Positions 2,874 to 58,165 of a DNA stretch of 64,000 bases are shown here, one piece after another. Each line of letters begins with the position of its first letter. Position 1 is the stretch's first letter. The notes under the pieces are model-generated. The model was not told the DNA's origin and did no database searches. It worked only from the letters and a program-made list of their open reading frames with translations. Both the position numbers and the translations under genes were made by a program. Source of the stretch: Narthecium ossifragum (Eukaryota > Streptophyta > Magnoliopsida > Dioscoreales > Nartheciaceae); assembly GCA_963920575.1 (NCBI GenBank), contig OY986971.1, positions 18,962,492-19,026,491 of the forward strand, written 5' to 3'.

Positions 2874-4500
2874 TGATAAGACGTGAAAAGTGCACAAATC
2901 ACCCTTTTAACTAGGTCTCGTTAGTCTCCGAGCAATGCTATTTTGATTGTCTTTTCCCCATTTCAGGCTTAAGGACCCTCAACGAAGATTAGATCAAGTT
3001 TGGTGCTAAAACGAACAAATAAAGAACCTGCTAGGAGCAAAAGAGCAAAGGAGCAAAGATGGACCATCTTTGACATCAAAACTGTACCTGCTCAGGAAGA
3101 ACCAGATGATGTGCTATACATGGTTGGAAAGCTCTTGAAGTCTAGATTTCAGAACTTTTTACGGTTCATGATTTGGAGTTTCCTAGAGGAAGATATGCTA
3201 TTTTTAGTACAGAGGTGCAGAAGAAGCAGTTACGGAAAACCAGATCGATCTCATCCCAAAGGAGATCGATCTCCTTGGGCGCTGCGGGAAAAATAAAAGG
3301 AAATTGACTAATCCGAGTTAGGGTTTGTCGGATGCTATAAATAGCCTTCTTTGGGGGCGTTTTGGCAGCCTTCCATGGCCGAATTTTCGTCATCTCTTAG
3401 GGTTTCTCTTAGTTTCTTTTCCACAAATTAGGTTAGATCTTTGGTGGAAGATCCATGGGTGGAGCGCGGCGACAACTTTCATCGATGGATCTCCTTCCTA
3501 AGATGAGTAACTAATCTCTAGCCTAGGGATTTATATGATGTATTAGAGAATCTTTCTAGGGACTTTCATGGATCTGAGCATGTATTCTTTTAATGGTTTT
3601 TAATGGAATAATCTTTTATTGTCATATCTATTGGTAATATTTATTATGGTGAATGGATTGTTTGTTCGCTGTGCCCTAATTTCGGTCTGTCTTGTCTTGG
3701 TTTTTCCGTGGGTATACAGCCGGATTTTGTGAAAGCTCAAAACATAAAAGTTGTAGATCTCTTCCTTAGCTTTTCAACGAATCTTGAATCACCTTGTTTC
3801 GAGTTCGGATGTGAAAGTTACGCTGAGATTACACTCGCTGGTTTTGAGCATTGCATGTTAGAAGCTAGGGTTAGGACTTGTTCAAGATGCTTTCATGCTA
3901 GAACCATGTTAGATCTTTGGATTGGATTCTAAACCCTAGATTATGATTGTAGGAGTGCTAGAACCACTGTCTTAATGCTAGAACCATTAAGACCTATAAT
4001 TGTAACCTTCGATTCGATCTTTATCTTTATTGATTAGGCGATCTCAAAGTGCTAGAACCACTTTGATTATTCTCATACCAATTATCCGCTGATTTGATCT
4101 TCGTTCCGATGAAGACTTCTTACGAATCTTTGTTGAGTGATAGGTAGATCTAGCCATTCTCCTATCAACTTTTGGAAAACCATCTCTGATTTATGGTTTT
4201 GCTCTCATTCTAGGAAAGCCTAGATAGTTCTTTATTATTGATTAGAAATCTCTTGACCATTTATCCTATTATTATTTAGTTTAATCTGAGTTAAGAGTAG
4301 TTTAAACCCAAAAATCATTTCCTTTATCAATCTTTTGATTTAGAACTATACGAGGTAATTAGACTTAACACTTCTTTTCCCTGTGGATTTGACTCGGACT
4401 CATTGCTATCTACCCATAAAGTAGTTAGTCAGTGATTCATATTATAAATTTGTAATTTTGGCATCCTTGTTAAGGTAACGACACTTTTCAAGGCGTGTCA
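2874..4500 (+). mobile_element. Solo LTR L1, Athila-type (same family as L4 and L5)
   Basis: It begins TGATAAGACG and ends GGCGTGTCA, 1627 bp, with exact GTCGG duplications at 2869-2873 and 4501-4505. The first 300 bp contain a module shared with L2-L4, L6 and L7 (about 3110-3190). A GATCGATC palindrome pair at 3243 and 3264 lies upstream of the TATA ctataaatag at 3335-3344. The end region, with 'cttgttaaggtaacgacac', matches L4 and L5. There is no internal region, so this is a solo LTR left by LTR-LTR recombination. Confidence 0.9.
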
Positions 4501-4538
4501 GTCGGTTTGTTTCGCAACCGCGTGGTGCACACACAATG

Positions 4539-6174
4539 TCGCGCCCCGACCCGCGAAAGCCCAACCAAGACGGGCGACGTGAACCGGAACCTAACAAACT
4601 ACGGAAATTATTGGCGAGGGTTCCCTCTAACCTAATGGTTTCCCTAAGCAATTCATCAAAAGCCCTCAATTACAAATTCAAAGATTTAAGAAACCTCAAG
4701 CTGAAGATTATCAAAACCCAAAATATAATACACAAAACCTCGAAGAGGGGAAGATCAAGTACAAACATATATACTCTCCTGTAGGAGACTAACTATATAA
4801 GGGTTAAGGAAAAACAGATCACCTCTCCTCAGACTCCGCCAGGCGCCGCCGCACCACTGACCAACTGCCCGGTAGGGGCCACCGAAGAAAAGCTAACGCC
4901 TGCACCTGCAAAACACAGCTCGGGTAGGAATGAGCACTAAGCTAAGCAGGGAAACTACACTAGGACACACAGAAGGAAGAGAGAAACGCAACAGTGTCGC
5001 CCTCTAGTAAGGCCTGGGTGTACACATGGGCCCCATAACCCCACCGCATGTCCCTGAGGTCCACGATCATGGTCTTCCAGAAGAACTGATCACATAATGG
5101 GTCACGCTCAGTAAGCAGGAAAATAACACGGCTGACTCACAAGCAGGAAACTGGCACTGCTGGCAGGAAATGGCACCGCTGAGTAAGCACACCCTCTACT
5201 CAAGAGTCGTCACAACTGAACACCGGCTACACCTCAGATGCCGACTCGAGGCCGACACCACCTCTACAATCATCAATCAACATGTGTTCAAGTCATCTAG
5301 GCCTATCCTCGAAAATCCACTGAACACCACCATTCAAACCTGGACCAAGCTATCGCACCTCGACCCGCGAAAGCCCAACGGGGCTGGGCGACGTGAACCG
5401 AAACCTAATAAACTGTGAAAAATATTGATGAGGGTTTCCTCTAACCTAATGGTCTCTCTAAGCAATTCATCAAAATCCCTCAATTACAAATTTAAAGATT
5501 TAAGAAACCTCAAGCTGAAGATTATCAAAACCCAAAATATAATACACAAAACCTCGAAGAGGGGAAGATTAAGTACAAACATATATATTTTCTCGTAGAA
5601 GGCTAACTATATAAGGGTTAAGGAAAAACAGATCACCGCTCCTCAGACTCCGCCAGGCGCCGCCGCACCACCGACCAACTGCCCGATAGGGGCCACCGAA
5701 GAGGAGCTAACACATGCACCTGCAAAATACAGCCTGGATAGGAATGAGCACTAAGCTCAGCAGGAAAACTACACTATGACACACAGAAGGAAGAGAGAAA
5801 CGCAACAGTGTCTCACTCTAGTAAGGCCTGGGTGTACACAGAGGCCCCATAACCCCACAACCCCACCTCGTGTCCCTGAGATCCATGATCATGGTCTTCC
5901 AGAAGAACTGGTCACATGATGGGTCACGCTCAGTAAGCAGGAAAACAATACTGTTGACTCACAAGCAGGAAACTGGCACTGCTGACAGGAAATGACACCA
6001 CTAAGTAGACACACCCTCTACTCAAGAGTCGTCACAACTGGACACCGGCTACAACTCAGAACCCGACTCCAGGCCGACACGACCTCTACAATCATCAATC
6101 AACAGGTGTTCAAGTCATCTAGGCCTATCCTCAAAAATCGACTGAACACCACAATTCAAACCTGGACCAAGTTA
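4539..6174. repeat. ~0.81-kb direct tandem duplication inside X2
   Basis: The segment 4539-5352 is repeated at 5353-6174. Both begin with a tcgc...cgacccgcgaaagccc stretch and both end in 'cctggaccaag'. The copies differ by scattered substitutions and small indels (814 versus about 822 bp), so the duplication is not recent. Other family X copies carry this block once. Confidence 0.9.
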
Positions 6175-6683: not shown

Positions 6684-7366
6684 GATCGATCTTCTTTGTG
6701 CTTGAGGAAAGCCTCGTCCCAGTCAACCGGAAGAGATCGATCTTCTCCACCATAAGGATCGATCTTCTTCGTAACTTGGAACCCGCCCATGCCAACCAAG
6801 CAAGGATCGATCTTCTCCAACAGAAGGATCGATCCCGCTTGGGCTGGGCATGACGCCCCACAAGAGATCGATCTTTCCTCAAGAAAGATTGATTCGGATG
6901 GATTCACCGGTGAACCGCCGGTGAGAAAATACTGCCGGAAAACTCCACCAAACCCCACAAAACCTTGGGATCTGGTAGTACGAAGGATCATGAGTCCAAA
7001 ACCAGAGATTTCATTGAAAATAAACTTGTATTTAATCAGATCTAAGCAAAACAAACCTCAAGCAAACTCAAACCTCACAAAATCCAGAAAAACAAGTAGG
7101 TAGGATCCCTACCTAGACTAGAGCAACTTCAATCCCAGCTGCTAAGACTTGGATCATCCTTAAACTCTTTCAAATCCAGCCGGATCTCAGCTCAAGAACG
7201 CTGATTTGCGAAAGAATCAAAGAAGAGGGTTTCATTCGTTTTATAGACGGACGAACCGACCTATGAGAGATCGATCTTTTCTCAAAAAGAGATCGATCAT
7301 TCATGACGAACCGACATAACTTTCTGGCGCTAAAAGATCGATCTTCTTAGCAAGAGAAGATCGATT
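6684..7366. repeat. Paired GATCGATC palindrome arrays in the X2 promoter region
   Basis: Palindromes start at 6735/6757, 6805/6827, 6866/6887, 7269/7291 and 7336/7359, giving spacings of 22, 22, 21, 22 and 23 bp, plus a lone site at 6684. Flanks are mostly AAG/CTT, so many sites read AAGATCGATCTT. In X2 sense orientation (minus strand) the 7269-7366 group lies upstream of a TATA-like element near 7236. Confidence 0.85.
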
Positions 7367-12635: not shown

Positions 12636-12640
12636 AAATT

Positions 12641-14026
12641 TGATGTGTTGTGGCAAGCAACCAAAAATAAAACAAATACTCGTTAAAATAAATGTAGTAG
12701 TGCGAGTACGAGTCGATCCCATGAAGAGTGTCTAATATAAGTTTTGTGCTATGTGAACAAAGATGGGGGGTTTTGAGTAAAATGAAAACAATAAAGAAAC
12801 AATCTAAAGCGGAGAATCGAATTGAATCAAGAGAACAAACCTTGGTCTAAGTCAACATCCACCATCAGAATCTTTTTAACTGATCATCGATGCAAGTATA
12901 TATCAATTCACACCTTGAATATTCCCCGTTTGAATTAAATTCGAATCTCTCCTCGATCATAGTTAATTAGAAACAAGCGATTTAATCAACCCTAACTAAA
13001 CAACCTAAAACAAGCGCTGTAGGTTTAATCTAGTAGCAGCCTTAAGGATAAGGAGATCGGTGAAGCTAAACAACACAAGCACACGCAGTTGCATTTAATT
13101 TAGTCGAACGTTCTTCCTAAGATCTAACAATCTCTGAAACACAGTAGATCATTACACCCTAGTTGCCTCGCAGATTAGAGGGATCAAACAATTACGGATT
13201 TGATATCCAACCTAGCAGTAGATTGCGATGAATAATAAACTAGTAGGCTTCCTAGCAATTAGACAAGACAATCATGAATATAATCACAGAAAAACATTCA
13301 ATACTCAAGTATAAACTGAACAATAAAAATAGATTAGATCTCACAGTTCATGGATTCCGAGGTTTCAGTTTCCTCGACCAAGAATTAAGGTTTAGCCCCG
13401 CAGGGCCATCAAGAACAATCCTTTAAAGAAGAAAGAAGAACTCTAGAAATATCAAAGAAATAAAAAGTGGCAGCAAAAATTCTCTAGAATTCGCCCCCCT
13501 CAATCCCTAAAAAGAACCATATTTATAGCCCATAAGTTTCCTATCCTCGGATTAAATCTGAGCCCTTAATTCTACAAGGTCGGTTAACAAAGATCGATCT
13601 TGTATGGAAAGAAGATCGATCTTTTCTTCCCAAATTGTGGCTACACCCCGACTCAGATCGATCTCTTCTGAAAAGACGATTGATCTCTTTATTCTCTGCA
13701 TATTTCTTCTGCTATTCTGCCCTATGCTGGTTGTAGTAAAAACACTGTAACTTTCTCTAGGAAGCTCCAAATCACGAACCATAAAATTATCCAGAAATTA
13801 GACTTCAAGAGCTTTCCAATCATATATGACACATCATCTGGTTCTTCATCAGCAGGTACAGTTTAATCTTTAAAGTTGATCCATATACTCTTTTCAGCTT
13901 CTTTTCGAACTTAAGAACTTCAATTGCATCCTAAATCAAAATATAAGAATAATGAGTGTATTTAGGTACCAAATAAGCACAGGAGACTAGTATTAAGGGA
14001 TAAAAATATAACATTATGCATCATCA
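12641..14026 (-). mobile_element. LTR L2, 5' LTR of element A
   Basis: On the plus strand it runs from TGATGTGTTG to ATGCATCATCA (right end uncertain by three bases because of a TCA repeat). In sense orientation it begins TGATGATGCAT, contains the U3 module shared with L1, L3, L4, L6 and L7, a GATCGATC pair at 13592/13614 and then a TATA-like element at about 13519-13530. The primer-binding site follows directly. No matching 3' LTR remains. Confidence 0.85.
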
Positions 14027-14029
14027 TCA

Positions 14030-15692: not shown

Positions 15693-18302
15693 TGTGAGGA
15701 CTCGTCCCTCAGACCTGGCTCGACCGGGTGGGTCGAGAGCCGGTTTTCTTTTGGTCTGGTTCCGCGTCGGGCACGATCGGGCGATCGTGTGGTGGTTTGG
15801 ACCCCAGGGGCATTTTGGTAAATATGCCCCCTGGTGGTCGGTTTCACATCCGCGTTGCACCCACGGCCTTGGATTGATGTATGTGGTTGTTTAGAATGGT
15901 TAGGTGGACCCGGGATCGGAAGATCCCAGCTCGGGCGCGCTGAAGCTTGCCTTTGGGCAGCTTACGGCCCTTGAGCGACTGATCGGGCTCATGAGCGGGT
16001 CGGTGGGCTTTCGGCCCGTTAGTTAGACCCGGCCCGTTAGTGGCCTGTTAGTGGGGGCAGTTGGAGCAGTTGGCTCCAACTCCCTTTTTCCCCCTCTTCT
16101 CTTTTCTTTTCCCCGGTTCTCTTCTCCTCTCTTCTCTCCCTCCTTCTCTTCTCCTCCCGCCAACGCCCATTCTTCTTCTCTCTTCTCCCCTTCTCCTTCG
16201 GCTGGGCTAAAGCTTGGAGGGCTGAGCTTTGCGGAGTGGACCTTCACGGCACGACTGGCTGGACGCGTGGAGAGGCTTCACTGCTTGCCCAGGTAGGTGT
16301 TTCTACCCCGATCCTTGGATCGGGTTCTACTAGGTTAGGTTGTATGTGTTTTTGCTGTGGAATACCTAGTAGAATGCTTGTAGATCCTTGCATATGTGGT
16401 GTGCTTCTTTCCCTTGTATTCTTACACCATGAATCCATGTTTTAGCCAGTCGTTTTCCGTATTATCGAAGCTTCGTCGGTTTCTGTCCATTTTCCACCTA
16501 GATAGGAGATTTCAAGATTTAACCGTCAAAAACGGGATTTCTTTACATCGTTGGATTCCCCATAGTTAAATACTCTTGCCTACAAAGTTTCATTGTTTTT
16601 AAACATGTTTTGATCCTTGAAAACCTAGAAATAAGATTTCTGGCATGTTGCGTCGCGAGCTCGACGGTCGATCGGTGCATCGACCGTCAGGCTCGACGAT
16701 CGATCGATGTATCGACCGTCAGGCTTTAATATGCTTACTCTGGACCTGACGGTCGACCGTCGGATCGACCGTCGGGCTCTGTCGGGATTTTAGCCTCCCA
16801 CGGTCGATGGGTCGATCGACCGTGGGTCCTCTCTCTTTTTCATCCCGCCTCACGGTCGACCGTCGGATCGACCGTCGCATCGTCCGTGAGGCTCTGTCCC
16901 ATTTTGGGCTCTCGACGGTCGATGGGTCGATCGACCGTCGCCCATGAGGTTTTCTTCGTTTTGGCCTCACGGTCGATCGGTGGATCGACCGTGACATCGT
17001 CCGTGGTCTCACGGTCGATCCCCGGATCGACCGTGACATCGTCCGTGACCACTTAGACTTGGTTTTTCCGGCTCTTCTTGGATGGTTTTGATGGGGGGGT
17101 TAATGTCTAAACATGTTGGGAAGCATGTAGGGGAATTTGATGAGGTTTTCAAAGGAATTCCACTTGGTTTGAGATTAATTCAATGTTCTTTCCTTTTTAG
17201 AAAACCTATGGTTCTACTTGCAGTTAATACATGATTGATGGTAGTTAAGTGCTTAGTTAATTGCTTAGCCATTATCTAGCTATGAGTGCTAGTTAATGAG
17301 AAATTGTGGAACCTTAGCCTCTTGCCGGCGAGTGCCGAGGGCTATTGTATATCTGTTGGACTTATAACTGTTGATGTGGCATATAGAGACACCTAGGATA
17401 GATGTTTGCCTAGGCTCATGCATTGTATGCATTAGAGGCATTTGAGGTTAGGCGGGCGATGGTTTGGGTCGCCGATCCGAGGCTCTCTGGTAGCTCGGAT
17501 CTAGCCTTAGGGCCGTGGCTGGGTAGTCAGGATTAGGGTGTGATTGTTGATCTGAATCTCTGGTGTTGAGGAGTATGCGATAGTTGGCTTGAATCAGTGT
17601 TGAGGTTTAGAGGTTGTGTTGCCTCCCAAAGCCAAGTGCTAAGGATGCAACCGATGTGTTCCCGACGTGGTCCCCAGGCAGTGGTATCCCTGCTGGGTAA
17701 TGGTGATCCTGCATGATACTGTTCCCCTGTCAGTGCTCAGGGTGATCTTGGTAGAGTGACCAAGAGAGAGGTTCTTGACAGGAGCCCTTGGGGCATCGGT
17801 GGGTTATGGGACCCGTGGCATTCGTTAGACTTGAGCTGGGAGACAACACTGTTGTTGTTTTCCTCCTTTCAGTGTGCCGTAGAGTAGAACCCTACTGAGC
17901 TTATCGCTCATTCCTACCCGGGCTGCGTTTGCAGGTGCAGGCGGCAGTTCTTCGTCCGTGGAGCCGGCGGGATCTGCCTTTGGCGGCGCGAGTACCTCCA
18001 GAGGCGTCTGAGGTTTTGTTGGAGGATATGACTGTTGCACTTTTTGATATATATATGCATGTTGTAAACCCTTGAGGAGTTTTGGAAATCTTGTATCATA
18101 TATGTACCTTGAAGAATTTTTGTATCAAATGTTAGACAGTACAACTTGATGTTATATGAATTAATTATCTGTTTGCCTCTGGATTATAGCTTTGTTTAAA
18201 TTTATCCGTCTTTCCGCAATTGTATCGCGCCAATTGAAGATGAATAGTGATAGGAACCCTCACGCCCCGGTCCGGATGAGTTTTCTGGGTCGGGGTGTGA
18301 CA
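15693..18302 (+). mobile_element. Family X LTR copy X7, complete
   Basis: 2610 bp, TGTGAGGACT to GGGTGTGACA, with exact TCCTT duplications at 15688-15692 and 18303-18307 inside the LINE-1 RT. A CT-rich leader lies at about 16080-16200 and a TAGGTGTTTCTACC hairpin-like site near 16293. A GGTCGACC/GGTCGATC palindrome array spans 16655-17045. The conserved block with cctacccgggctgcgttt is at about 17876-17945. No open frame of interest was found. Confidence 0.92.
16655..17045. repeat. GGTCGACC-type palindrome array in X7
   Basis: Many copies of ACGGTCGAYCGNNGGATCGACCGT-like units, spaced about 11-12 bp, separated by 'aggctctgtc'-like spacers. The same motif reappears in X6 (46504-46855) and in the unrelated Athila-type LTR L7 (57578-57830). 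Confidence 0.85.
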
Positions 18303-18840
18303 TCCTTTGTCTCCGTATCTTTTTCTAACGGTTCAGGAGGTTCTGTCACGGCTTTTAAAGAGGAGGAATGGTCTGAGGGGACTCCGCTTTCCTCATTTAG
18401 AATTTACTCTATCGCACTTACTTTATGCAGATGATTGTATGATTGTCTCTGCAGCTACTTGCTCGGAGGCTCGGAAGCTTAAGCAAATCCTTATGGCCTT
18501 CAAAGCATTGTCGGGTTTGGAAATGAATACTATTAAATCTAGTATTCAGTTCTCACCTACAGTGGATGGGGATAGAAAGCTTACTATTTGTCATATTCTG
18601 GGTTTGGCGGTAGTCGAGGGTACTTGGGAGTATTTGGGTGTTCCTCTGTGCATCAAGAAGCCTCAAAGAGCTTATTTTGAGAAGTTGCTGGATAAGATGA
18701 CCAACCGGGTGCTATCATTGCAGGGCAAGTATATTTCTCAACCGGGGAGGGTTGTGTTGGTGCAGTCGGTACTCCAAGCGATTCCAGCTTTTGTCATGGC
18801 TACCACTGAGATCCGGTGGGGCTTTTACGGTGTATAGCGA
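18303..18840 (+). pseudogene. LINE-1 ORF2, RT palm with YADD motif
   Basis: The frame resumes after the TSD with SLSPYLFLTVQEVLSRLL. It carries the RT catalytic motif YADD at 18424-18435, then the thumb region KFKALSGLEMN-like and YLGVPL (LGVPLCIKK) typical of plant L1 RT. A frame break and stop occur at about 18837. In the intact element this domain would reverse transcribe the LINE RNA at the nicked target. It is inactive here because of stops and five separate insertions. Confidence 0.9.
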
Positions 18841-20430: not shown

Positions 20431-21176
20431 TAAAAAATATCATGTGGGTTATGCATTGATATTTTACACTAAAGTGGGCTTATCGGCAACTATGCCTTAT
20501 TGTTATTTGAATGGTAGCATGTTATCATCTTTTTACACGGAATAAATAATTTTATTATTGATAGATATTTTGTAATAATCTAGCAATCAAAGTAAGAATC
20601 CTGGTTCCATCCCCGCGCGTGAAGGGCACGACCGCACGACACACTAATTTAACATAAAACTCACTTTCACTTGACAAAATCCACCCCTACCTTGTTTTAT
20701 GATATCAAAGGGTGTGTCGAGTGCTAAACAGCTTTAGCATCATGACACATAAGCCGAAGGTCATCGCCGGCAGCTCTCGGCGGCCGCCTTATCTCCACCT
20801 CCACCGGCCACCACTTACGCCGGAAACTTCCAATGCAAACGGCCGTCCTAGCTGTCCCAATTTGACCAGATAGGTCACACGTTTTAAACCAATTTGTTAC
20901 ATTCCCATAACGGGTCGAAAAATCCCAGTCATGAGCCCGTTTTTAATCCGATCCCTCTTCGCACGTACCACCTCCCCCCTCCTTCTAGACGTCACGGACG
21001 TAGAGCGGCTAGAGCCACCATACCATTGGCGACCGGACTCTCCTAAACCCTCGAAGACCGTTGACCGCCCCCGCTTGGAGTCCTGGTCACGGCACCGGCC
21101 CTTCTCTTTTTAGTCACCTCCTCACCTCACTCCTCCCAATACCGGTTCGTATCCAATCACCGCCGACTCATTGCTC
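20431..21176 (+). promoter_or_regulatory. Host intergenic DNA and promoter of the ATL gene, with two W-boxes
   Basis: Unique-looking sequence with no transposon similarity. Two TTGACC W-box cores occur at 20862-20867 and 21061-21066, the second about 110 bp before the start codon. WRKY factors bind such sites, and ATL6/ATL31-type genes are induced by elicitors, so a defence-responsive promoter is plausible but inferred. No clear TATA box was seen; the leader before the ATG is C/T-rich. Confidence 0.5.
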
Positions 21177-43208: not shown

Positions 43209-43737
43209 CCCTTCCTTCTCTCCCGTGCCCGACCTCTCTCCTTCTCCATTATTCTTCCCCGCTCACGACCGCGCCGGCCCTCTCCCTTCTCCGGAGCTCC
43301 TTCGCCACCATCGTGGGCCACCGTTCTCCCTCGAGCTCCCTCTGTTGGGAATTTGAGGGGTCCCGATGATGCCGGAGATACGCCAGATAATGCCGGGATG
43401 TCGCAGCGAAAGAGAAACAACCAAACCACAAAGAAAAGAAAATAGTTGAGACAAGGATTTACGTGGAAAAACCTACCAGCAACAATTGGAAGGAAAAAAC
43501 CACAGGCAGCAGAGGAAATCTTCACTATGAGAGAGAGATCACAAAGCCCAAACCCTAGCAGAGACAAAGAGATCTCTTTAGGGTTGCCTACTTTCACACC
43601 GCTCACAATCCTCTAAACCATACAAAAGAAACCCTAGAAGCACTCTATTTATAGCCTCCAAAGAGTACAAATCCGGATTAGATCTGAGCCATCGAATTTA
43701 CCCATCCAATAGGAAGGGATCAATCCTATTGAAAGGG

Positions 43738-44080
43738 AAAGATCGATCCTTGTATGCTCGAGGTCGATGGATTCCAAAATCTCGATCCTAGTATATAGGA
43801 GAGATCGATCCTTTATATCCGAGCGTCCTCAAAATCTCAGCATCCCGAAGAGGATCGATCCTACCTTGATCTTTACAAAAGTGTGCTCTCTATCTCTTTT
43901 GTTTACAAAGTAAGATCGATCTTCTATTCCATTGAAGATCGATCCTATATATCCGTAGAGCTGCTACCTCCTGAAGAGGATCGATCACCTGGAGAGAAGG
44001 ATCGATCCTCTGATAAAGTGCTCTCTGTCTAGAATAATGCAAAGAAAGATCGATCATTTAGACTATAAATGATCGATCCT
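43738..44080. repeat. Paired GATCGATC array in the copia E 3' LTR (repeated at 50495-50870)
   Basis: Pairs start at 43914/43937, 43979/44000 and 44048/44071 (23, 21, 23 bp). They lie upstream (minus sense) of the TATA ctatttatag at about 43644-43655. Spacers include 'gtgctctctgtc', also found in L5. The same array is in the 5' LTR. Confidence 0.88.
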
Positions 44081-44717
44081 TTTTTTGCTGCCGTCATCCT
44101 CATGGGAGGAAAAGTCAACAAACTCCCCCATCCGACACATGAGGATACACCGTCGAACTCGGATACTCCATCAAACTCGGATACACCATCGAATTCGAAA
44201 TTGTGCCGCCGTCATGCCAACTCCAGTGCTGCTAGCTAGCCGCTTTTATGTTGCCGTCGAAGTTGGATAACACCATCAACCTCAGATCTACCATTGAACT
44301 CTCGATCTGACATCAGATTCAGATCACCATCATCGAGAACTGTCCACCAAAACTTGGATGTCGTCGTCAAGTCCTGATCTTCTCGGTTGCTTTCTTGCCT
44401 TCAAGTCACAATACATTCCGGGCTTGTAACTCAGATATCCTCGGTCGCTTCGATCGACCGGATACACCTCCTCGTGCTCCTAGCACGGAAGCTCCCCTGT
44501 CACCAGACAGCTGGGTCTAGCGTGACGTTCGCGGTGCTCTCATCTTCACCATCATCAACCTTGCCATCTCTGACGTCCTTCTTGTACTTCCTGCATGATG
44601 AATAAATTTTATATCTCGCAAGTATACGAATCGGTGTGATCAGTATAGCAGCAAGACGAGTATCGTACTCACAGAGATTTGTAGAGATTATTAGAGTAGA
44701 ACGCTAAAGAAAATAGA

Positions 44718-45503
44718 AGAAGCCCATTCCTTGTGAGAAAGTCACCAATAGAATAGGATTTCCAAGATCTTAAAAGAAGGATCTTCAAGAGGTTCCACTT
44801 GAGAAGTAAAGGGAATTTATTATTGGCCAACCTTCAATAAGTCGGGGGGCTTGGCTTTCCCAGCAGAGAGGGTAGGAGGGCAGTGACATATAAAGAATCT
44901 TCCTTCCGCCGCCTATCCTTCTCGGATTTGATCAGCTCATCCTCCGCGCGCTCTTGCAACCGCCTATTGGATTCTTGAGCTTAGGAGTGATGCCTATCGC
45001 AGTTGCCGAACGGGAATCTCATATGCAATACGGGGCGGCGCCCACCGCCAATGTTATCAATTATAGGCTCAAATTTCTATGTATGTCTTTAGAAATTCAT
45101 TCTTTCTTTCTTGTTCTACTGGTGTGGATGACACGCTTCTTTGAACAATTCTAGGCTCACTTCGACGTTCCGCTGTTGATGTCCACTTTTCTTCCACCAT
45201 AGCTCCGGTCCCTTGTTCATATCTTTCAAGAGCTTGGGACATCCCCCTGTGACCCTCCGATTTGGAGGAAAATAGAGGAGGTTTGAGAAACCAAAACCCC
45301 CTACGTCGTTTGCGAGTTGACTCAGAGACAGACGTGGGCGAAGGTTCGTCAATGATTAGCCTGTCCCCAGCCCAAGGTTCAGTATAAACAGACTGAGAAG
45401 GTTCCTCAGATCCTACCCTCGACAAAAAGTCCAATGGGACTCTACAGAGGCTGACTTATCTCATCGACTCACCGTGTCATTGATCTTCTGAACCAGGCAA
45501 GAC
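44718..45503. other. ~0.79-kb segment of unknown origin inserted in L6
   Basis: Absent from the sister LTR L7, where the flanking 'gctaaagaa' and 'ataaggaa' sequences are almost adjacent (near 56800-56825). Base composition is more GC-rich than the LTR, with a complex, non-repetitive texture. A 121-codon minus-strand frame (45434-45069) has no domain I recognise. No terminal repeats or TSD are visible, so it is not an ordinary transposon. Texture suggests organellar, perhaps mitochondrial, DNA used as repair filler, but I could not match it to a gene. Ends are approximate. Confidence 0.5.
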
Positions 45504-45674
45504 AATAAGGAAAGGAAAGTAAGAAATATGAAGTATCGAAAATAGATGATCTAATAACGAAATAAGAAAATGATGGAAATATGATGAATGAATACTAAGG
45601 TTTCGATTTCACCATAACATCCTCATTCTATGCATTGAATCAACAAAATCTCAATTTAATTCCAAGAGCTCGTT

Positions 45675-48104
45675 TGTGAGGACCCGTACCTCCAACCTGA
45701 TCCGACCGTATTAGGTTGAGGGTCTGGGTTTGTGGTTTGGCTCGGTTGGCCTTGGGATGCGATCGGTTGATCGCATCGCTGTTTTTGACCCCAGTGGCAT
45801 TTTGGTTAATATGGTCCCTGGTGGTCAGTTTCACACCCGCGTTGCACACATGGCCTTTGATTGATGTATGTGTTTGATTAGAACCTTTAGGGCGCTTCCG
45901 ATCGAAAGATCGGAGCTCGATCGGGAGAGATCGAATCGAACGGCTGTGATGGATTCCAGCTTTCTATTTAAGCTCTTCTCCTTTCTCCCTCTTTTTTTTT
46001 TCTTCTTCTCCTGTCATTCTCCTTCTCTCTCTCTCCAACCGGCGGTGCTAGGGCTTTGGAGGCGTGCCTTTGGAGGAGCGGATTCCGGCGATCAGAGTTG
46101 GGGGATGCGTGGAGGAGCTGCCCTGCTTGTTCAAGTAGGTGTTTCTACCTCGATCTTAGGATCGGGTTCTCCTAGGATAGGTTTAATGCCTTTGCACTGT
46201 AGGAGTACTTCTTAGAATGCTATGTAGCTCTTTGTGCATGTAATGTGAATGATTTGAAGTATTTCTATCTCGCGATTTCTGTATTCCAATGGCTGGTTTT
46301 CGTATTATCGCCATTTATCGGTTTTCGGCCATTTTAACCTAAATTGGTGATTTAACCGTCAAAAACATGATTTCTTCGCACCATTGGATTCCCCATCATC
46401 TTTTATGAATGCTTGCAAAATCTCATTGTTTTCCAACTTGATTTGATCCTTGAAATCCAAGAAATTAGATTTCCGGCACTGTTCTGATGAACTGTGCCTA
46501 AGGCTCGACGGTCAATCAGTGCATCGACCGTCAAGTATTGATTTGCATCTTTCGAGCCTGACGGTCAACCGTGGCATCGACCGTGGCCTCACGGTCGACC
46601 ATCGGATCGACCGTCAGGCTCTGTCAGGTTTTTGACCTCCCACGGTCGATGCTTGGATCGACCGTGGCCTCACGGTCGACCATCGGATCAACCGTCGCAT
46701 CGTCCGTCAGGCTCTGTTTGATTTCGAGCTTCCCAGGGTCGATGGGTGGATCGACCGTCGCCCTTAAGGTTTTCCTTGTTTGGCCTCACGGTCGACCGCC
46801 GGATCGACCGTGACATCGACCGTGGCCTCACGGTCGACCGTCAGATCGACCGTGGGGCCTTGAACAGTGTTTTCTGGTTTTTCTTGGATGTCTTTCACTT
46901 GGGTTTGATAATTAAACATGTTGGGAGGTTGGTATGAGGTTTTCATGGAGTTTTCAAGGGATTTCCATTGAGATTAAGGATTGAATCGGATGTTGATTTC
47001 CTTTGAATAAATTGATGATGTGGCTTGCTTTTAAATACATGTGTGGTCGGTATTCAATTGCTTATTTGTTTGTCTAACCATTAGCTAGCTATGAGTGCTA
47101 GCTAATGAGGAATTGTGGAACCTTAGCCTCTTGCCGGCGAGTGCCGAGGGCTATTGTATAACTGTGAACCTATAACTGATGATGTGGCACGTAGAGGCAT
47201 CTAAGGTAGATGTTTGCATAGGTCCACACATTGTGTGCATTAGAGGCTTATGAGGTTAGACGGGCGATGGTTTGGGTCGCCGATCCGAGGCTCTCGGGTA
47301 ACTCGGATCTAGCCTTAGGACCGTGGCTAGGTAGTCAGGATTAGGGTATGATCTTGTATCAACGAATCTCTTGTTAGTGAGGATTTGCGATAGTTGACTC
47401 TGATCAGTGTTTGAGGTTTAGAGGTCGTGTTTTTTTCCAAAGCCAAGTGCTAAGGATGAATGTTGGTGCGTTCCCAACGTGGTTCCCCAAGGGTTGGTAT
47501 TCCAGCTTGGGTAAGGGTGATCCTGCATGTTACTGTTCCTTGGCCTCCTGGTCACATGTTCAGGAGAGAGGTTTCATGACAGGAGCCCTTGGGACATCGA
47601 CAAGGTTGTGGGACCCGTGACATCCGTTAGACTTGAGCGGGGAGACAACACTGTTGTTGTTTTCATTCCTTCAGTGTGTCGTAGAGTAGAACCCTACTGA
47701 GCTTATCGCTCACTCCTACCCGGGCTGTGTTTGCAGGTGCAGGCGCCAGTTCTTCTTCAGTAGAGCCGGCGAGATCAGCTTTTGGCGGCGCGACTACATC
47801 CAGAGGTGCTTGAGGTTGTTGGAGGTCGATTGTTGTACTTTGGCAGTTTTGTAAATTGTAAACATATTTGAGGACTTTTGGGATTATTTGTGTAATATCT
47901 TTTCCTTGGAGGACTTTGTATCAAATCTTGTATCAGTACAATTTGATGTATATATATGAATTGAATTACTGTTTCAACTCTGAAATATAAATTGTTTTAA
48001 GTTTATCCGTCTTTTCTGCTTTGTATCGCGCCACTTGGAGATGAATAGTGTAGGTTTCCCCTCACGCCTCGACTCGGATGGGTTTTCTGGGTCGGGGTGT
48101 GACA
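45675..48104 (+). mobile_element. Family X LTR copy X6, complete
   Basis: 2430 bp, TGTGAGGACC to GGGTGTGACA, in L6 with flanks TCGTT (45670-45674) and GCGTT (48105-48109), a TSD with one change. An inverted repeat GCGATC-ggtt-GATCGC is near 45760, TATA-like ctatttaa at about 45964, CT-rich leader to 46040. A GGTCGACC array lies at 46504-46855 as in X7, and the conserved block at 47681-47760. Confidence 0.92.
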
Positions 48105-49334
48105 GCGTTCTTCCGGTATGATGATCCGTTCGATCACGGTCTTCACCAAGTACCCTCAATTAACCTTAGCTAATGAACCCATAACTAAGTGTTAATCAAG
48201 AATCCATTAAGCTCTGAAGAAAAAATTATGAACCAAGAGTTGTCTTAGCTTGAACCCGGCCTTGACATAAACTCATTCATTCATAGATCCTGCAAGATTA
48301 GGGAATGAACCATCGCCCAATCTCATATAAAACAATTAATAATACTTCTATTGGCTAGATAAAGGTATTTAAGATCTACGTTATAATAATGAATGAGACA
48401 AGGAAAATAAACTGATTAAATATTCATGATCTAATAACATAGAATGATTCAGTTAGGGCTACATCGGTTCTTTAGCAAAGGGATTAGCCACTCATGTTCA
48501 TCATAAAAACAACCAAGATATTCATAAGAAAGATAAGAAAGAAAAACCCTAGATCTTCGTGTGGTCTTCTCCCCTCTTTCCGGCCTCCAAAACTCCTTCA
48601 ATAGTGCTGGCCGACCCCCCTCTTTATGTCTTGGACGACTTCCTTAAATATGGGTAAGAAACCCTAACTTTACTTCAGCCTTCGGATTAAATCTGGTACG
48701 TTCGTTTTCAGGTCGTCGGACAAGAGATCGATCTTCTTAAGGATAAAGATCAATCTTCTTTCTAATCTCAATTTTCGTAATCTGGTTCGCCCCGACTAAG
48801 ATCGATCTTTTTTGGGAAAGGATCGATCTTATTTCTCCGTAGACTGGGTCACTTACAGATCGTGCAGGTTCAGATCGATCTTGTTTTGGGAAATGATCGA
48901 TCTTCTTATAATTGGTCCTCTGTCAACTCTCTTTCAGCGTCTGAGCACAAAAAGAGATCGATCTTCTTTGGCATCCGATCGATCTTCTTCTTCCGTAGTT
49001 GCTTGCTCCTGCATCTCTCGTACTAAAAATAGCATATCTTCTTGTAGGAAACTCCAAATCATGAATCGTAAAATTCTCCAGAAACTAGATTTTAAGAGCT
49101 TTTCAGCCATGGATAGAAGATTATCTGATTCATTCTGAGCAGGTACAGATTTGATGTTGAATTTGACATATCTTTGCTTCTTTAGCTCCACTTTCCTGCA
49201 TATTCCAAATAACTTTGTGAAGCAACATATAAGTATAAAAATAGAACGAAAAATACTAATTAAGGATGAAAAATCCAGTAATTAAACTAGTTATAAGGCT
49301 ATTCAGAGTGCACTTTCATGCACTCATCACTGCA

Positions 49335-50102
49335 TTGCTTCTTTACATGGCCTACTTTGCCACGGTAATAGCAAGTGACACTTTTTCTTCTCTCTTGGTT
49401 CATTGCCATCATAGATTCTGAATCTATCTGCCTTGCTCCAGCGGTCTTCCGTCTGGTCTATTCGTTCAGCAAATAGCCTGTAACTTGGCTCAGAGATACT
49501 GCTCCGTCAGGCACTGAGTTGCTGAGCGAGGCTACCAGACTCTCCCAAGAATCTGGCAAAGAGCTTAGCAGGAGAGATGCCTTCATGTCGTTATCCAAAA
49601 CCATCTTCATGGTTGCAAGTTGATTGACGATGCTCTGAAACTCATTCAGGTGCTCGGCTATTGACCGTCCATCTAGGTGCTTTAGATTCACGAGCTGTCG
49701 GATCAAGAACGTTCTGTTTCCAACAGACTTCCTCTCGTAAAGCTCATGAAGCTTCTCCCAAAGATCTTTGGATGTCTTCGTCGACACGTGGTGGTAGACG
49801 CAATCTTCCAAACACTATCGGATAGTTGCCAAGGCCGTCCTGTCAAGCTTGTTCCATTCTCCTTCCTCCATCTCTTTAGGCTTCTTTTCTATTCCATGCA
49901 GAGGCTTGTAGAGATCCCTGCAGAATAAAAGATCCGCCATCTTTGTCTTTCATAGGTTCCAGTTGTTTCCGTTGAGTAAAACCATCCGTCCAACATCGAT
50001 ATCCATCTCGCTTCTACCAGAATCCAACCCAGATGCTTCAGATCTTGATTAGGGACTTAGAATCTTGATCAGAGATTCGATTCCCCTAATCTTGGAACCT
50101 CG
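49335..50102 (-). pseudogene. Copia E gag (UBN2-type) with altered zinc knuckle
   Basis: After the primer-binding site the minus-strand frame reads NGNNWNLWKTKMADLL (copia gag start), then the UBN2 domain KDLWEKLHELYERKSVGNR, LVNLKHLDGRSIAEHLNEF, LLSSLPDSWESLVASLSNS. A stop near 49812 and one near 49457 break the frame. The zinc knuckle reads CYYRGKVGHVKKQC, so the second Cys of CCHC is Arg. L6 splits the frame just after the knuckle; it continues at about 44590 with RKYKKDVRDGKVDDGEDES and ends without reaching a protease. Confidence 0.85.
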
Positions 50103-53100
50103 GCTCTGATACCACTTGTTGGGAATCTGAGGGGTCCCGACGATGCCGGAGATACGCCAAATAATGACGGGGATGTCGCAGCGGAAGAGAAACAATCAAA
50201 CCACAAAGAAAAGAAAATAGTGGAGACAAGGATTTACGTGGAAAAACCTACCAGTAACAACTGGAAGGAAAAAACCATGGGCAACAGAGAAAATCTTCAC
50301 TATGAGAGAGAGATTACAAAGCCCAAACCTTAACAGAGATAAAGAGATCTCTATCTAGGGTTACCTACTCTCACACCTCTCACAATCCTCTCAACCACAC
50401 AAAAGAAACCCTAGAAGCACTCTATTTATAGCCTCCAAAGAGTACAAATCCGGATTAGATCTGAGCCATCGGATTTGCCATCCAATAGGAAAGGATCGAT
50501 TCTATTGAAAGGGAAAGATTGATCCTTGTATGCTCGAGGTCGATGGATTCGAAAACCCCGAAGAAGATCGATCCTATTATATAGGAGAGATCGATCCTTT
50601 ATATCCGGGCTTCCTAAAAATCTCAGCATCCCGAAGAGGATCGATCCTACCTTGATCTTTACAAAAGAGTGCCCTCTGTCTCTTTTGTTTACAAAGTAAG
50701 ATCAATCCTCTATTCCATTGAAGATCGATCCTATATATCCGTAGAGCTGCTACCACCTGAAGAGAATCGATCACATGGAGAGAAGGGTCGATCCTCTGAT
50801 AAAGTGCTCTCTGTCTGGAATAATGCAAAGAAAGATCGATCATTTAGACTATAAATGATCGATCCTTTTCTTGCTGCCGTCATCCTCATGAGAGGAAAAG
50901 TCAACACCCTCTCCTCAGATCCGGCTAGAGCTTCTCTCCCGCGAGCTCTATCTCTCCCGAGAACCCTAGATCCGAGATCCTCTCCGCCGATCTCCCTTCT
51001 CCGGAGCTTCTTCTCCGCCGTCATCCACCATCGCTCCTCTCCGAGGTCGTCCTCACCCCTCTCGAGCTGTGGAACCCCTTCTCCTCTCGGATCCGACACT
51101 CTCTTCCTCGCCGATCAATGAGCTCCACCGGCCACTTCGCGTCACCTCTCCACCGCCGCCAAGCTCCAGCGCCTGGAACAACGTCGGGAAGATCCGATCC
51201 GACCTTCCCTCTTCTTCTCCGAGCTCTGAGGTAGGGTTCCCACCTAGCTCTTTGATTGCTTCTCTTCTAGATTGCTCTGTGATGCATGTTCTTCATCTGG
51301 TAGATGCTTCTTAGGATTTGATTGTGATTTAATTGGGTTTTTAAGCATGTCTTTCCCGGATTTTCGTCGATGCTCTGTTCTTCGATGAACAGTCACGTTC
51401 AAGCCCGATTGGTGAGCTGTGTGAGCATGATCTCGTGAAACTTGCAAGATGAAAGTTTTAGATCATCGAGTTCTTTTTCGACTGCCGCTGGTTTCGTGAT
51501 TTATATACGATATTTGGAGAATTGTTTCCTAAATTGTTGCGAAACAGAGATTAAGAAATTGATTAGTAAAATTTGTGGAAATTAGACATCAATTAGATCC
51601 GATACTTGGGCTGCATGTTTCTACTATGCTAATATACATTTGCCCAAGTTTAATTTCCAATTCGACGTCGTTTGGACATCGAATTGATAAGATTTCATTG
51701 CCTCTAACAAGGGTTTAATATAGAAATCCGGAATTTGGCTTTTGGTGGTTTTTAGACGATTAATTGTTTGATGCCGGCATGTTTAGTTAGCTATAAATCA
51801 TTCTTGTTCAATTAGCAACTAATTGCATGTCATCCTTATTTACATCGTATAGTGTACATGTATCCTTAGCTTGTGGTTGAACCAAGGGAGTCACACCCCT
51901 TGGGATGTTTAGATAATTAAACGGGCCGAAGGTGTGCCCTAGATTATATACACTATATTTATTGTTGTTTTTGTGATTGTGTGGTCGGGGGTGTACCCAG
52001 TTGTAGAAATTGCGGTTGACGGCTGTGGATGTCGTTGTAATGCCGAAATTTAGATTGAATTGTATAGTTGCTTGTTTACGGCCTGTGTTGCCGTTATTTG
52101 TGTTAGACAGATCTTTATTTGATGTAGACCCATGCTATGCTTACCCTTCGGCAAGCTTCATGCTTCGCCTAGCCCGTATATGTTGCTCGACATATTATTG
52201 CATGTCTGAATTCCTCTTGATGTGTGTGTGAGCATTGCATGCATTTGATTGCATTAGAAGCATCAGGCTAGTTGGTAGGCAATGGATTCGATCGTCCATC
52301 CGGGGTTCTCGGATAGCTCGGATCTAGCCCGAGGACCGGGGTTCGGGTAGTCGAGGATTAGAACGTGATTGTCATCAATGATTATGTTTGATATCATTAG
52401 AGGATTATTAGGTAGTCGGACTGGAATATTATATTGTTATTGAGGTTTAATGGTCGTGTCGGTTCTCCAAGGCCAAGTGCTAAGGATGGTTGTTGATGTC
52501 ACTGACGTGTGTCCCAAGTAGTGGTTTCCTGCTGGGTAAAGGGTATTCCTACTAGTTCTGGTTCATTGTTTCGTCCCAGCGTGTTTGGTTGATGTTCCCA
52601 GCGTGGTCGGTTGAGAAGAGTAGGATCCTTTGGGGAATCGATAGGTGTTATGGGACCCCGTGACATCCTTTACACTTAGGCGGAGAAAAGACACTGTTGT
52701 TGCTCCCTTCCTTTCTATGTGACGTAGAATAGCGTAGAACCCTACTGCGCTTTCTTGCTCACTCCTACCTGGGTTGCATCGGCGATGCAGGTCGAAGCAG
52801 TCTTTTCCTTTCATGTGATCTTCTAGGCGTTGGCGCGCCATTCTCGAGGTGATCGTGGACTTGGAGTTTCGAGGAGTACTTGACGATCCTGGAGTTTTCC
52901 CTTTTGTTAATAGTTGTACATTTGCAGTTATATTACATGCATAATTTTCCCTTTTCGAGGATTTGATTGTCTGTATTAAATTATGTAATGAGGGTTGATG
53001 AAAGCATTGTATCAGAACCTGTACTAGATAGTGAAATTTGTGAAAGCAGATTCATATTCATGTTGAATTTTAGAACTGTTAGATTTATCGTCTTTATTTA

Positions 53101-53236
53101 TCGTGAAGATTATAAACTCTACAGTGTTCAAATTGAGAAATACAGGGGAAACTCTCGCCGTTTGTTTTTAGAAATAGTTTTAGGACCCTCATGCCCCGGA
53201 CCGGATGGGTTTTCTGGGTCGGGGTGTGACATGGGG

Positions 53237-56049: not shown

Positions 56050-56689
56050 GTCGGTCTCTTGTCCCGCACCACAACTTGGTAGTACAGGGCCATAACCTCA
56101 ATGAGCTGCTGGGGCAAGCGAATTGCCCAATCCTTGGCCAGCAACCACAAAGTGCATAGCCAATTGCCAGAGCGATATTGATCGTGGCGGCACTGGTATA
56201 CGTTCCGGTGAAGGATATCATCGATCAACCACAAGTGGGCTGGCAGCTCGGCACGAGTGAAAGTGCCCTTGCTCGTGCGACCTGGGTGGAGGAGGACGTG
56301 AGGAACGGAGTCGTGAACGTACACCTCCTCGGGTCGAGGTTTGTGAGGACCTGGGCAACGGGAAGGGATTGCCAAAACTTGATAGATAGGCTTGGCATTC
56401 AAGGTGACCTATGTACCGTCGATCGTGGATGTGAAGCCAAGGGCTGGGTAGCGCACATCAACGGCCTCATCTCGCCTATCTCCATAGAGGATGGCCTTCA
56501 TGTTCTGGTAGAACATGCAAACCAACCATTGGTACACCGTGGTGGACTGAGTGCAGATGGGTAACAAGCCACAACGCTCGAGGATGAAGATAGAGTCATG
56601 TGCATGGCCTACTGTTCGGAAATAATCGATGTCAAATGTAAACTCAAGGTTTACCTCCCGCTGCTATCGCGGTTGGAGACCTCGGACGA
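56050..56689 (-). pseudogene. Element C additional ORF, resembling the plant transposon protein domain PF20167
   Basis: Sense translation gives FDIDYFRTVGHAHDSIF, then VPHVLLHPGRTSKGTFTRAE, LPAHLWLIDDILHRNVYQC and LLAKDWAIRLPQQLIEVMAL. The TRAELPAHLWLIDDIL-type core recalls the 'putative plant transposon protein' domain found in Athila-type elements; the assignment is by memory of the family, not a search. In-frame stops occur near 56430 and 56665. Its N-terminal part was separated by insertion of element B at 56690. Function of this ORF in the family is unknown. Confidence 0.55.
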
Positions 56690-58165
56690 TGATGTAAATT
56701 TTATATCTCGCAAGTATACAAATCGGTGCAATCAGTATAGTAGCAAGACGAGTATGGTACCCACAGAAATTTGTAAAGATTATTAGAGTACGACGCTAAA
56801 GAACAGAAAAGAAAGAAAATAAGGAAGGGAAAGTAAGAAATATGAAGTATCGAAAATAGATAATCTAATAACGAAACAAGAAAACGATGAAAATATGATA
56901 GATAAATACTAAGGTTCCGATTTCACCATAACATCCTCATTCTATGCATTGAATCAATCAAGATTTCAGTTTAATTCCAAGGGCTCGTTCTTCCGATATG
57001 ATGATCCGTTCGATCGCGGTCTTCACCAAGTACCCCCAATTAACCCTAGTTAATGAACCCATAACTAAGTGTTAACCAAGAATCCATTACGCTCTGAAGA
57101 ACAATTAAAAACCAAGAAGTGTCTTAGCTTAAACCCGGCCTCGACTAAATCTCATTCATTCATAGATCCAGCAAGATTAGGGAATGAACCCTCGCCCAAT
57201 CTCACATAACACAATCTATAATACTTCTATTGGCCAGATAAAGGTATTTAAGATCTCAATTATAATAATGAATGAAACAAGGAAAATAAACTGATTAAAT
57301 AATCATGATCCAATAACATAGAATGATTCAGTTAGGGCTACATCGGTACCTTAGAAAAGAAACTAGCCACTCATGTTCATCATGAAGACGACAAAAGTGT
57401 TCAAAGAAAAATAAAGAAAGAAATACGAAGAAAACAAAACCCTAACGCGGCTTCCTCTCCTCCAGATGCTCCAGAAAAGTCCTCCCAAAAGCTCCCCTTT
57501 GATAACCCTAAGTATCCTATTTATAGGCCTAAACTCGGGTTAGATCCGGCTCATTATATGCTCCCTGCTGATCTGGCGGTCGACCATGAGATCTCACGGT
57601 CGACCGTCAACTGTACAAAATAATTTGGAAGAGCGACGGTCGATCTTCGGATCGACCCTGAGAAGAATTTTCTTTAATAGAGGCTGACGGTCGATGCCAC
57701 AGATGATGCCACGGATGATGCCACGGTCGACCGTGGGAAGTTTTGCATGTGACGGTCGATGCGACGGTCGTTCGGGGGAATTTTTGGGCGCGACAGTCGA
57801 CCGTGAGATCTGACGGTCGACCGTCACTATTCATTCAGCCTGCGCACTGTTACGAAAAATGTTGTAACTTTCCTTGGAAAACTCGGAATCACGAACCGTA
57901 AAATTCTCCAGAATCTACACTTTAATAGGTTTCCAACCATATATGGCACATCATCTGGTTCTTCATGATCAGGTACAGTTTAATCGTTCAAGTTGATCCA
58001 TGTAATCTTTTCAGCTTCTTTGCTCCTTTTTCCTGCATTTTCCACACAACTATGTGAAGCAACAGATAGATATAAAAATAGTAATAAAGATTTTGATTAA
58101 GGATAATAATCTAGCAATTCACATGGTTATAAGATTATTCAGAGTGCACTTTCATGCACTCATCA
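56690..58165 (-). mobile_element. LTR L7, 3' LTR of element B
   Basis: 1476 bp; on the plus strand TGATGTAAATTTT to CACTCATCA. Immediately right is the minus-strand polypurine tract GGTTGGGGGGTG. It shares both ends with L6, and has the shared LTR module (57850-57965) and a TATA-like ctatttatagg at 57518-57528. Its palindrome array (57578-57830) is of the GGTCGACC type, unlike that of L6. Inserted in element C in the same orientation; left flank GACGA. Confidence 0.9.

Follow-up and report, generated by a model that had tools for sequence, protein, structure and literature searches.

Paired palindrome arrays in copia and gypsy long terminal repeats of Narthecium ossifragum: a candidate promoter module shared between superfamilies

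Palindromic arrays in Sirevirus and Narthecium LTRs

Palindromic arrays in the long terminal repeats (LTRs) of retrotransposons have so far been reported as a peculiarity of Sireviruses, with no known binder. In Sirevirus LTRs, a conserved TATA box is preceded by palindromic motifs (RM; Bousios et al. 2010, PMC2829016). That paper gives the RM as CGGTCGACCG in Vitis and as ACAATCGATTGT in Tnd-1, counts at least eight copies per element in clusters starting 200-400 bp past the LTR start, and finds the palindromes recurring in divergent elements of monocots and eudicots; its authors report the RM to be specific to Sireviruses and missing from the classic copia elements that they compared. Here we analysed 64,000 bp of the Narthecium ossifragum genome (assembly GCA_963920575.1, contig OY986971.1, C9 in our genome counts, positions 18,962,492 to 19,026,491; hereafter the window), where arrays of the palindrome GATCGATC are found in both gypsy and Ty1/copia LTRs. 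Our comparisons suggest, with moderate confidence, that the arrays act as the enhancer of a U3 promoter module recognised by a dimeric host protein, and that this block has also passed between copia and gypsy elements.

The window is plant DNA packed with nested LTR retrotransposons. An open reading frame (ORF) bearing reverse transcriptase (RT) at 62376-63998 was 45-82% identical to its relatives, and every organism named among the best 120 of 7972 scored was a plant. Self-comparison of the window gave three LTR groups, L, E and X. The L group comprises seven homologous LTRs, L1 and L4 on the plus strand and L2, L3, L5, L6 and L7 on the minus strand. Upstream of L7, on the same (minus) strand, lies a pol in gypsy order (protease, RT, RNase H, integrase; 60445-63998), which matched PF00078, PF17917/PF17919 and PF00665 in a Pfam scan, and a purine-rich tract directly precedes the start of L7. 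By its adjoining pol L7 is classified as a gypsy LTR, and L1-L6 are gypsy by homology within the L family; the lineage name Athila was given to these elements in a preliminary description of this DNA, and the data here are the gypsy pol order and the plant relatives. E is a pair of minus-strand LTRs (E3, 43343-44128, and E5, 50117-50914; 92% identical) that encloses a copia-type gag ORF (49461-49814, minus strand; Retrotran_gag_2, PF14223, E 9.6e-29) and lacks most of its interior. With a copia-type gag inside a matched LTR pair, E belongs to Ty1/copia.

Several features resemble the Sirevirus motifs. The Vitis RM is identical to the palindrome of L7 and the X family, the Tnd-1 motif and GATCGATC have the ATCGAT core in common, and dyad palindromes stand upstream of a TATA box in L1, L2, L4, L5, L7 and E. 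The CGG-CCG signature of the RM is present in L7 and in two X-family members, X16 and X46 (CGGTCGACCG), and absent from the GATCGATC arrays, as in the exception Tnd-1 described in that paper. Against the published minimum of eight copies, the numbers of exact GATCGATC sites are 2 in L1, 3 in L2, 7 in L3, 4 in L4, 8 in L5, 7 in L6, and 9 and 6 in the two E LTRs, while L7 has 3 exact CGGTCGACCG; most of these elements are fragments. The sequence ahead of the arrays measures 169-371 bp in L1-L7 in the slices as cut (the start of the L2 LTR was not located) and 42 bp in E. Sireviruses carry multiple polypurine tracts (AGGGGGAG) ahead of the 3' LTR; E has one TGGGGGAG by its 3' LTR and no exact AGGGGGAG in the 1.4 kb searched, its interior being mostly missing. 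The hosts differ, however: Sireviruses are Ty1/copia, and the L arrays are not filed as Sirevirus motifs because the L elements are gypsy. The 22-bp pairing, the helical phase and the spacer and core grammar common to two superfamilies also go unmentioned in the accessible part of PMC2829016. By analogy, the L arrays look like Sirevirus motifs and probably work alike. A literature text search combining the motif strings with 'retrotransposon' returned only Bousios 2010, most subscription papers being outside its scope; in some papers holding both GATCGATC and 'retrotransposon' the string was, in the passages retrieved, a Hi-C junction, a primer or an example string.

Abundance, pairing and helical phase of the palindromes

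GATCGATC occurred 60 times in the window, compared to 0-4 times in 20 first-order Markov shuffles, and the reversed octamer CTAGCTAG had a single copy. Of these sites, 46 belong to the arrays of L1-L6 and E, and the remaining 14 are located within or next to X-family repeats. The preliminary description had reported at least 20 cases of sites starting 21-23 bp apart. That count was reproduced (20 of 59 adjacent gaps), and all seven pairs it quoted are present, the second site of the pair 48726/48748 having one mismatch (GATCAATC). None of the 20 shuffles contained a pair at 20-24 bp. In L1-L6 and E3, 15 of the 33 adjacent gaps between exact sites measured 21-23 bp (2.8 expected; maximum 8 in 5000 random placements that redistributed the sites over the same array spans, with E5 set aside as a near-identical copy). 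When one-mismatch sites were admitted this became 25 of 44, with five pairs in L5, four in L6, three in L4 and two in L2. The one-mismatch sites number 11: five carry C>T or G>A changes at the central CpG, and four are GATCCATC units of L3. Genome-wide (379.4 Mb), GATCGATC-N13..15-GATCGATC, which corresponds to starts 21-23 bp apart, was found 68,158 times and the reversed pattern 10 times. Palindrome enrichment and 22-bp pairing were confirmed as real both in the window and across the genome, and the enrichment of the spacing over background, on which the preliminary description had staked its proposal, held.

The 93 within-array distances of up to 260 bp in the window had their strongest period at 10.4 bp (R 0.38; range scanned 7-16 bp). 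In the phase test the 20-24 bp pair distances were removed and a jitter of at most 6 bp was applied to the long gaps; 3 of 2000 such nulls reached R in the 10.3-10.5 bp band, distances inside one array not being mutually independent. When each array was left out in turn, the nulls reaching R numbered 1-15 of 500 for exact sites and 0-7 of 500 when one-mismatch sites were included, the set without L6 being the exception. In 20 genome regions outside the window (described below), with one array taken from each of 11 clusters, the best period was 10.2 bp (R 0.48) and 0 of 1000 nulls reached it in either the narrow or the wider band (9.8-11.2 bp). The palindromes are phased at 10.2-10.5 bp, the helical repeat of DNA.

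The preliminary description also held that the bases flanking the palindromes keep dyad symmetry. Over all sites this was so, 33 of 60 having a symmetric base beside GATCGATC (19.3 ± 3.4 expected); inside arrays the count (31 of 57 vs. 28.6 ± 2.1) showed no excess, which ruled out covarying flank symmetry there. Because the excess appears over all sites but not within arrays, it is the arrays that differ in type, and not the sites inside them. Symmetric changes distinguish the array types aGATCGATCt, tGATCGATCa, gGATCGATCc and CGGTCGACCG, a pattern to be expected from retuning or exchange of the sites of a symmetric dimer. Counted per pair, symmetry was seen within sites in 17 of 30, outer to outer in 11 of 15 and inner to inner in 5 of 15 cases, which is not decisive.

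The palindrome-rich LTR region of maize Sireviruses, according to work attributed to Bousios and colleagues in 2016, reportedly has a strong predicted secondary structure. The maize clusters are reportedly copia only (Bousios et al. 2016), and the likeness here is a palindrome-rich, strongly folding LTR region. Maize Sirevirus palindrome clusters also attract small RNAs, as cited in PMC10760457. An explanation at the RNA level, in which hairpins formed by U3 transcripts enter small-RNA silencing or are under some other selection for their structure, would fit these reports and the RNA folding of our arrays, which exceeded shuffles (L5 z -5.28, E z -5.61). We nevertheless consider it very unlikely, since strong folding is expected of any palindrome array, and helical phase and a fixed distance to the TATA box are features of DNA. 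The spacers within pairs were self-complementary at 94 of 209 positions (56.7 in letter shuffles), but this was not clearly above the level reached by dealing right halves among left ones (81.9 ± 6.3; 185 of 5000 as high), and without L3 it was 66 vs. 66.1; hairpin-type covariation was rejected.

Promoter grammar, block replacement among gypsy LTRs and a probable exchange with copia

In LTR orientation, the arrays and their predicted promoters follow one order: a palindrome pair, a spacer with GACAGAG, a second pair, one or more further spacers, the last palindrome, 30-34 bp, the motif AGATYTAATCC, 21 bp, and TATAAATA. The distance from palindrome to motif is 30-34 bp in L1-L6 and 32 bp in E, and that from motif to TATA is exactly 21 bp in L1, L2, L4, L5 and E. 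With up to three mismatches, AGATYTAATCC-N21-TATAAATA had six matches in the window, where 0.08 were expected; they lie in L2, L4, L5 and both E LTRs, and at position 33635 within the L4 LTR. GACAGAG stands exactly 22 bp upstream of a palindrome in L4, L5, L6 and E3, 4 of the 13 occurrences listed; in E5 the palindrome that should follow it is decayed. TTCTAGG lies downstream of the TATA box at equal distance in L4, L5 and E, and GGCYCAGATYTAATCCG differs by a single base between E and L4 and between E and L2. The spacer noted earlier as common to L5 (gypsy) and E (copia) is indeed there, GACAGAGAGC (reverse complement of gctctctgtc) having four copies in the window, in L4, L5 and both E LTRs.

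On the plus strand, L1 has one GATCGATC pair with a spacing of 21 bp (3243-3271) and a core of truncated motif GACTAATCC, 21 bp and TATAAATA (3306-3343). L4 carries four exact and two one-mismatch palindromes in three pairs (33907-34070), with GACAGAGAGC at 33956, 22 bp upstream of pair 2, and the core AGATCTAATCC-21-TATAAATA without mismatch (34103-34142). The remaining arrays are on the minus strand. The L2 array has three exact GATCGATC and one GATCAATC in two pairs (13592-13685; core AGATTTAATCC-21-TATAAATA, 0 mismatches, 13520-13559). The L5 array has eight exact and two one-mismatch palindromes in five pairs (38585-38885), GACAGAGAGC at 38827-38836, 22 bp upstream of pair 2, and the core ATATCTAATCC-21-TATAAATA with one mismatch (38513-38552). 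In copia, E3 has nine exact GATCGATC and a last site GATTGATC (43718-44078), GACAGAGAGC at 44020-44029, again 22 bp upstream of pair 2, and the core AGATCTAATCC-21-TATAAATA with 0 mismatches (43646-43685), and E5 has six exact GATCGATC (50566-50864) and a core with 0 mismatches (50423-50462). The L6 array consists of seven exact GATCGATC and one GATTGATC in four pairs (48726-48984), with GACAGAG at 48918-48924, 22 bp upstream of pair 2, and the motif AGATTTAATCC 31 bp past the last palindrome (48684-48694). L3 has seven exact GATCGATC and four GATCCATC (28653-28963), and its motif AGATTTAATCC follows 30 bp past the last palindrome (28612-28622); at 28719-28848 the palindrome unit has turned into a short tandem of GATCCATC and CTATAG units. 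The L7 array is of the other palindrome type, with three exact CGGTCGACCG and first and last pairs 20 bp apart (57577-57823); GGATCTAACCC takes the place of the motif, 11 bp before TATAAATA (57518-57547), ten bp less than the motif-to-TATA distance in the other LTRs.

The long spacers of E (5) and of L2-L6 (13) gave a similarity score of 61, which none of 500 dinucleotide shuffles reached (45.8 ± 3.0); reverse-complemented L spacers scored 42 and other pieces of the window 41.3 ± 3.0. In the positive control, in which the spacers of each L array were compared with those of the other L arrays, L3, L4, L5 and L6 were each above all 200 shuffles. Over the 21-bp stretch between motif and TATA, E agreed with L1, L2, L4 and L5 at 7-11 positions (random mean 5.3), and L1, L2, L4 and L5 agreed among themselves also at 7-11 positions. 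In this alignment the stretch gives no sign of a recent transfer between copia and gypsy, nor of the superfamilies as separate groups.

Among the gypsy LTRs, alignment in 60-column steps showed the array-promoter block replaced as a unit. L6 and L7 are 68-85% identical in the 5' part of U3 and 28-56% through array and promoter; beyond the promoter they reach 64% in one transition step and 86-95% downstream, and the final step, next to where X46 is inserted, gives 63%. L6 and L3 are 65-85% identical in the 5' part of U3, 41-70% in array and promoter, and 34-61% beyond, until the end of the L3 slice. Exchange within the gypsy LTRs is supported because L6 and L7 match only outside the block, while the block of L6 matches L3. 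Within the swapped block GATCGATC in L6 becomes CGGTCGACCG in L7, so that the earlier observation of different palindromes in these sister LTRs was borne out. Across the 5' part of U3, L1-L4, L6 and L7 resemble one another at 79-88%, and the only matches of L5 longer than 23 columns are to L1 and L4. R-U5 groups the LTRs differently, into L1, L4 and L5 (79-84%) and L6 and L7 (90%), other pairs aligning over at most 61 columns; this mosaic structure likewise supports exchange.

VANDAL elements are not LTR retrotransposons, and their binder VANC is encoded by the element itself. VANC binds tandem motifs, and its targets differ between related VANDALs (PMC5735166), a likeness to the repeated short motifs that differ between the related LTRs L6 and L7. 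A VANC-like binder encoded by the retrotransposons, with the palindrome type switching whenever the specificity of the protein changes, is highly improbable in our view. The motifs here are common to two superfamilies, and an array type common to copia and gypsy would need one element-encoded protein serving both; moreover, a Pfam scan covering 20 of the 56 ORFs (at least 115 amino acids) found no candidate, the interiors being mostly incomplete.

Next, we analysed 20 genome regions outside the window (198,020 bases, all on contig C1). They were picked from the first pairs listed for that one contig, and the sample is therefore biased to pairs. (The labels L129, L132, L138, L139 and L145 used below denote sampled regions, distinct from the window LTRs L1-L7.) The regions contained 232 GATCGATC and 4 CTAGCTAG. 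By similarity, the 39 arrays that had at least two sites were sorted into 11 clusters; when each cluster was represented by a single array, 43 of the 72 gaps between neighbouring sites were 20-23 bp. Within 0-60 bp, TAATCC and TATAAATA were separated by 21 (10 cases), 22 (3) or 13 bp (1), and in the 13 cases at 21-22 bp a palindrome ended 36-38 bp before TAATCC, which fits the window when the longer motif is considered. GACAGAG occurred 47 times, 10 of them 21-22 bp upstream of a palindrome, whereas none of the 18 copies of the reversed word GAGACAG had a palindrome in the following 192 bp. At L145:4414 and L138:4447 the arrays are denser, with 10-13 GATCGATC sites, and form a cluster of their own, with a strict core only in L145.

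A second copia family is present in regions L132 and L139, where a match to the E gag (40-42% over 98 residues) lies between direct repeats 91-97% identical; by the presence of gag inside a matched LTR pair this family is assigned to Ty1/copia. The direct repeats of this family contain arrays; L139 has the core in each of its two LTRs, L132 in only one. A gypsy pol in L129 (RT 73% and RNase H-integrase 64% identical to those of L7) is followed downstream, on its own strand, by an array and core. The remaining 17 regions had no match to the five protein queries. Gypsy L4 matched the array-promoter of copia L132 at 66% over 259 columns and that of gypsy L129 at 63% over 202 columns, and copia L132 matched copia E at 70% over 176 columns, values that the palindromes inflate. 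In these alignments array-promoter similarity is not clearly sorted by superfamily.

Neutral tandem duplication, with the arrays as slippage products devoid of function, was already disfavoured and is the least credible of the explanations considered. Part of E is duplicated internally (offset 134 bp, about 64% identity), L3 has its short tandem of GATCCATC units and tandem repeats are present in some of the sampled regions, but the spacers inside arrays are mostly unlike, and from cluster to cluster the positions stay the same relative to the core promoter.

The module proposed above would work as follows. A dimeric host DNA-binding protein would dock on palindrome pairs two DNA turns apart, on one face of the helix; the docked array would stand at a fixed distance from the second motif AGATYTAATCC and the TATA box, and the bound protein would drive transcription from U3. 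The block would have passed between copia and gypsy by recombination or by template switching during reverse transcription. Binding, the host origin and dimeric state of the protein, the drive of transcription and the copia-gypsy passage are inferred. GATA, type-B ARR, TCP and telo-box factors were considered as candidate binders, and none is claimed. If the module is real, it would suggest that unrelated retrotransposons rely on one common host factor; it offers a testable site, spacing rule and core promoter, and promoter exchange could explain how families keep or regain expression. A bolder form, which we hold only tentatively and rather doubt, is a portable plug-in: one array-core block spread through the genome by capture and by swapping between copia and gypsy, with a switchable key (GATCGATC or CGGTCGACCG) that a host dimer would read on a single helical face. 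Unrelated elements would then share one transcriptional entry ticket to the host.

Several results weigh against the module. In the wider 9.8-11.2 bp band, 72 of 2000 nulls reached the R of the window; without L6, exact sites failed the phase test (67 of 500; best period 7.2 bp) and one-mismatch sites gave a weaker signal (24 of 500). To these is added the absence of excess flank symmetry inside arrays. L2, with one spacer, had no spacer similarity in the positive control (9 vs. 8.1), GACAGAG was not found 22 bp upstream of a palindrome in L1, L2 or L3, and the last palindrome of E is the one-mismatch GATTGATC. L3 and L6 have no TATAAA 21 bp past the motif, and in L7 the distance is 11 bp; the preliminary placement of the palindromes upstream of a TATA box thus applies to L1, L2, L4, L5, L7 and E, and not to L3 and L6, where TATAAA is missing at the usual place, or to the X arrays. 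Only 13 strict cores, in 11 of the 20 regions of a pair-biased sample, stand beside the 39 arrays; the idea that the arrays belong to promoters rather than to a satellite fits many of them.

Exchange of the block between copia and gypsy probably took place, long ago, to judge from the shared grammar. The alternative is convergence, in which copia and gypsy LTRs independently reached one grammar that suits host factors and the core promoter, with no cassette transferred. The motifs and distances are kept while the bases between them are not, the 7-11 agreements of E with L over 21 bp being set against a random mean of 5.3, and recurrence of Sirevirus palindromes in divergent monocot and eudicot elements, as described in PMC2829016, points the same way. 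We regard convergence as unlikely, though well short of negligible. Five features, one of them a non-palindromic spacer motif, share their order and distances; the GGCYCAGATYTAATCCG of E departs from that of L4, and from that of L2, by only one base; over the 21 bp, E is as near to the L promoters as these are to each other; gypsy L4 matches copia L132 no worse than it matches gypsy L129, on scores that palindromes inflate; and block replacement among the gypsy LTRs indicates that exchange does occur. Of the choice first offered between an exchangeable cassette and convergent selection, exchange is supported within the gypsy LTRs, while between copia and gypsy both an old exchange and convergence fit.

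The X family, searches elsewhere and other features of the window

The X family backs only the sharing of palindrome letters. X16 (15693-18302, strand not assigned) is an LTR-like repeat with TG..CA ends (TGTGAGG...GTGTGACA), a 5-bp target duplication (TCCTT) and a CGGTCGA/TCGACCG inverted-repeat array at 16664-17035. X46 (45675-48104, strand not assigned), of the same family, is inserted in L6 (flanks TCGTT/GCGTT) and has a CGGTCGACCG array at 46500-46850. All 11 of the CGGTCGA-N8-TCGACCG inverted repeats found in X16 and X46 measure 22 bp, where the pattern permitted 14-26 bp. Neither TATA[AT]A[AT] nor AGATYTAATCC was present within 1 kb of these two arrays. The type that L7 was said to share with X is shared as letters, CGGTCGACCG having 3, 2 and 2 copies in L7, X16 and X46; the spacers are not significantly similar (masked spacers 8-11, null means 7.8-8.7), and a cassette common to X and L7 past the palindrome letters was rejected. 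Nine further GATCGATC sites with three 22-bp pairs lie in or beside X-family repeats at 6684-7343 (strand not assigned). A significant likeness of their long spacers to those of L and E was likewise rejected, the score being reached by 51 and 369 of 500 shuffles read on the minus strand and by 455 and 208 of 500 on the plus strand.

Outside the plant genome, in public collections, the pair pattern matched 104 viral stretches, 28 of which had at least four GATCGATC or the core motif; as only one of these 28 held the core motif, the matches were taken as chance. The core pattern was found there at 14 prokaryote and 2 viral loci, none with GATCGATC or GGTCGACC, and the RT-bearing protein had no match in viral contigs.

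Other features of the window were also recorded. Insertions are nested at three levels, with X46 in gypsy LTR L6 and L6 in copia element E (43343-50914). Two adjoining 0.8-kb X-family segments at 4539-6174 are 90% identical, and a further TATAAATA lies at 219-226 on the minus strand, shortly after an ATCGAT sequence and beside X-family repeats. Between the gypsy pol and L7 there is a tandem duplication of about 1.1 kb (58582-60752, 89% identity). An RT fragment at 18301-18834 (PF00078) looks like a long interspersed nuclear element, and an open frame of 462 codons (stop to stop) with a RING-H2 finger at 21114-22499 is a probable host gene amid the retrotransposons.

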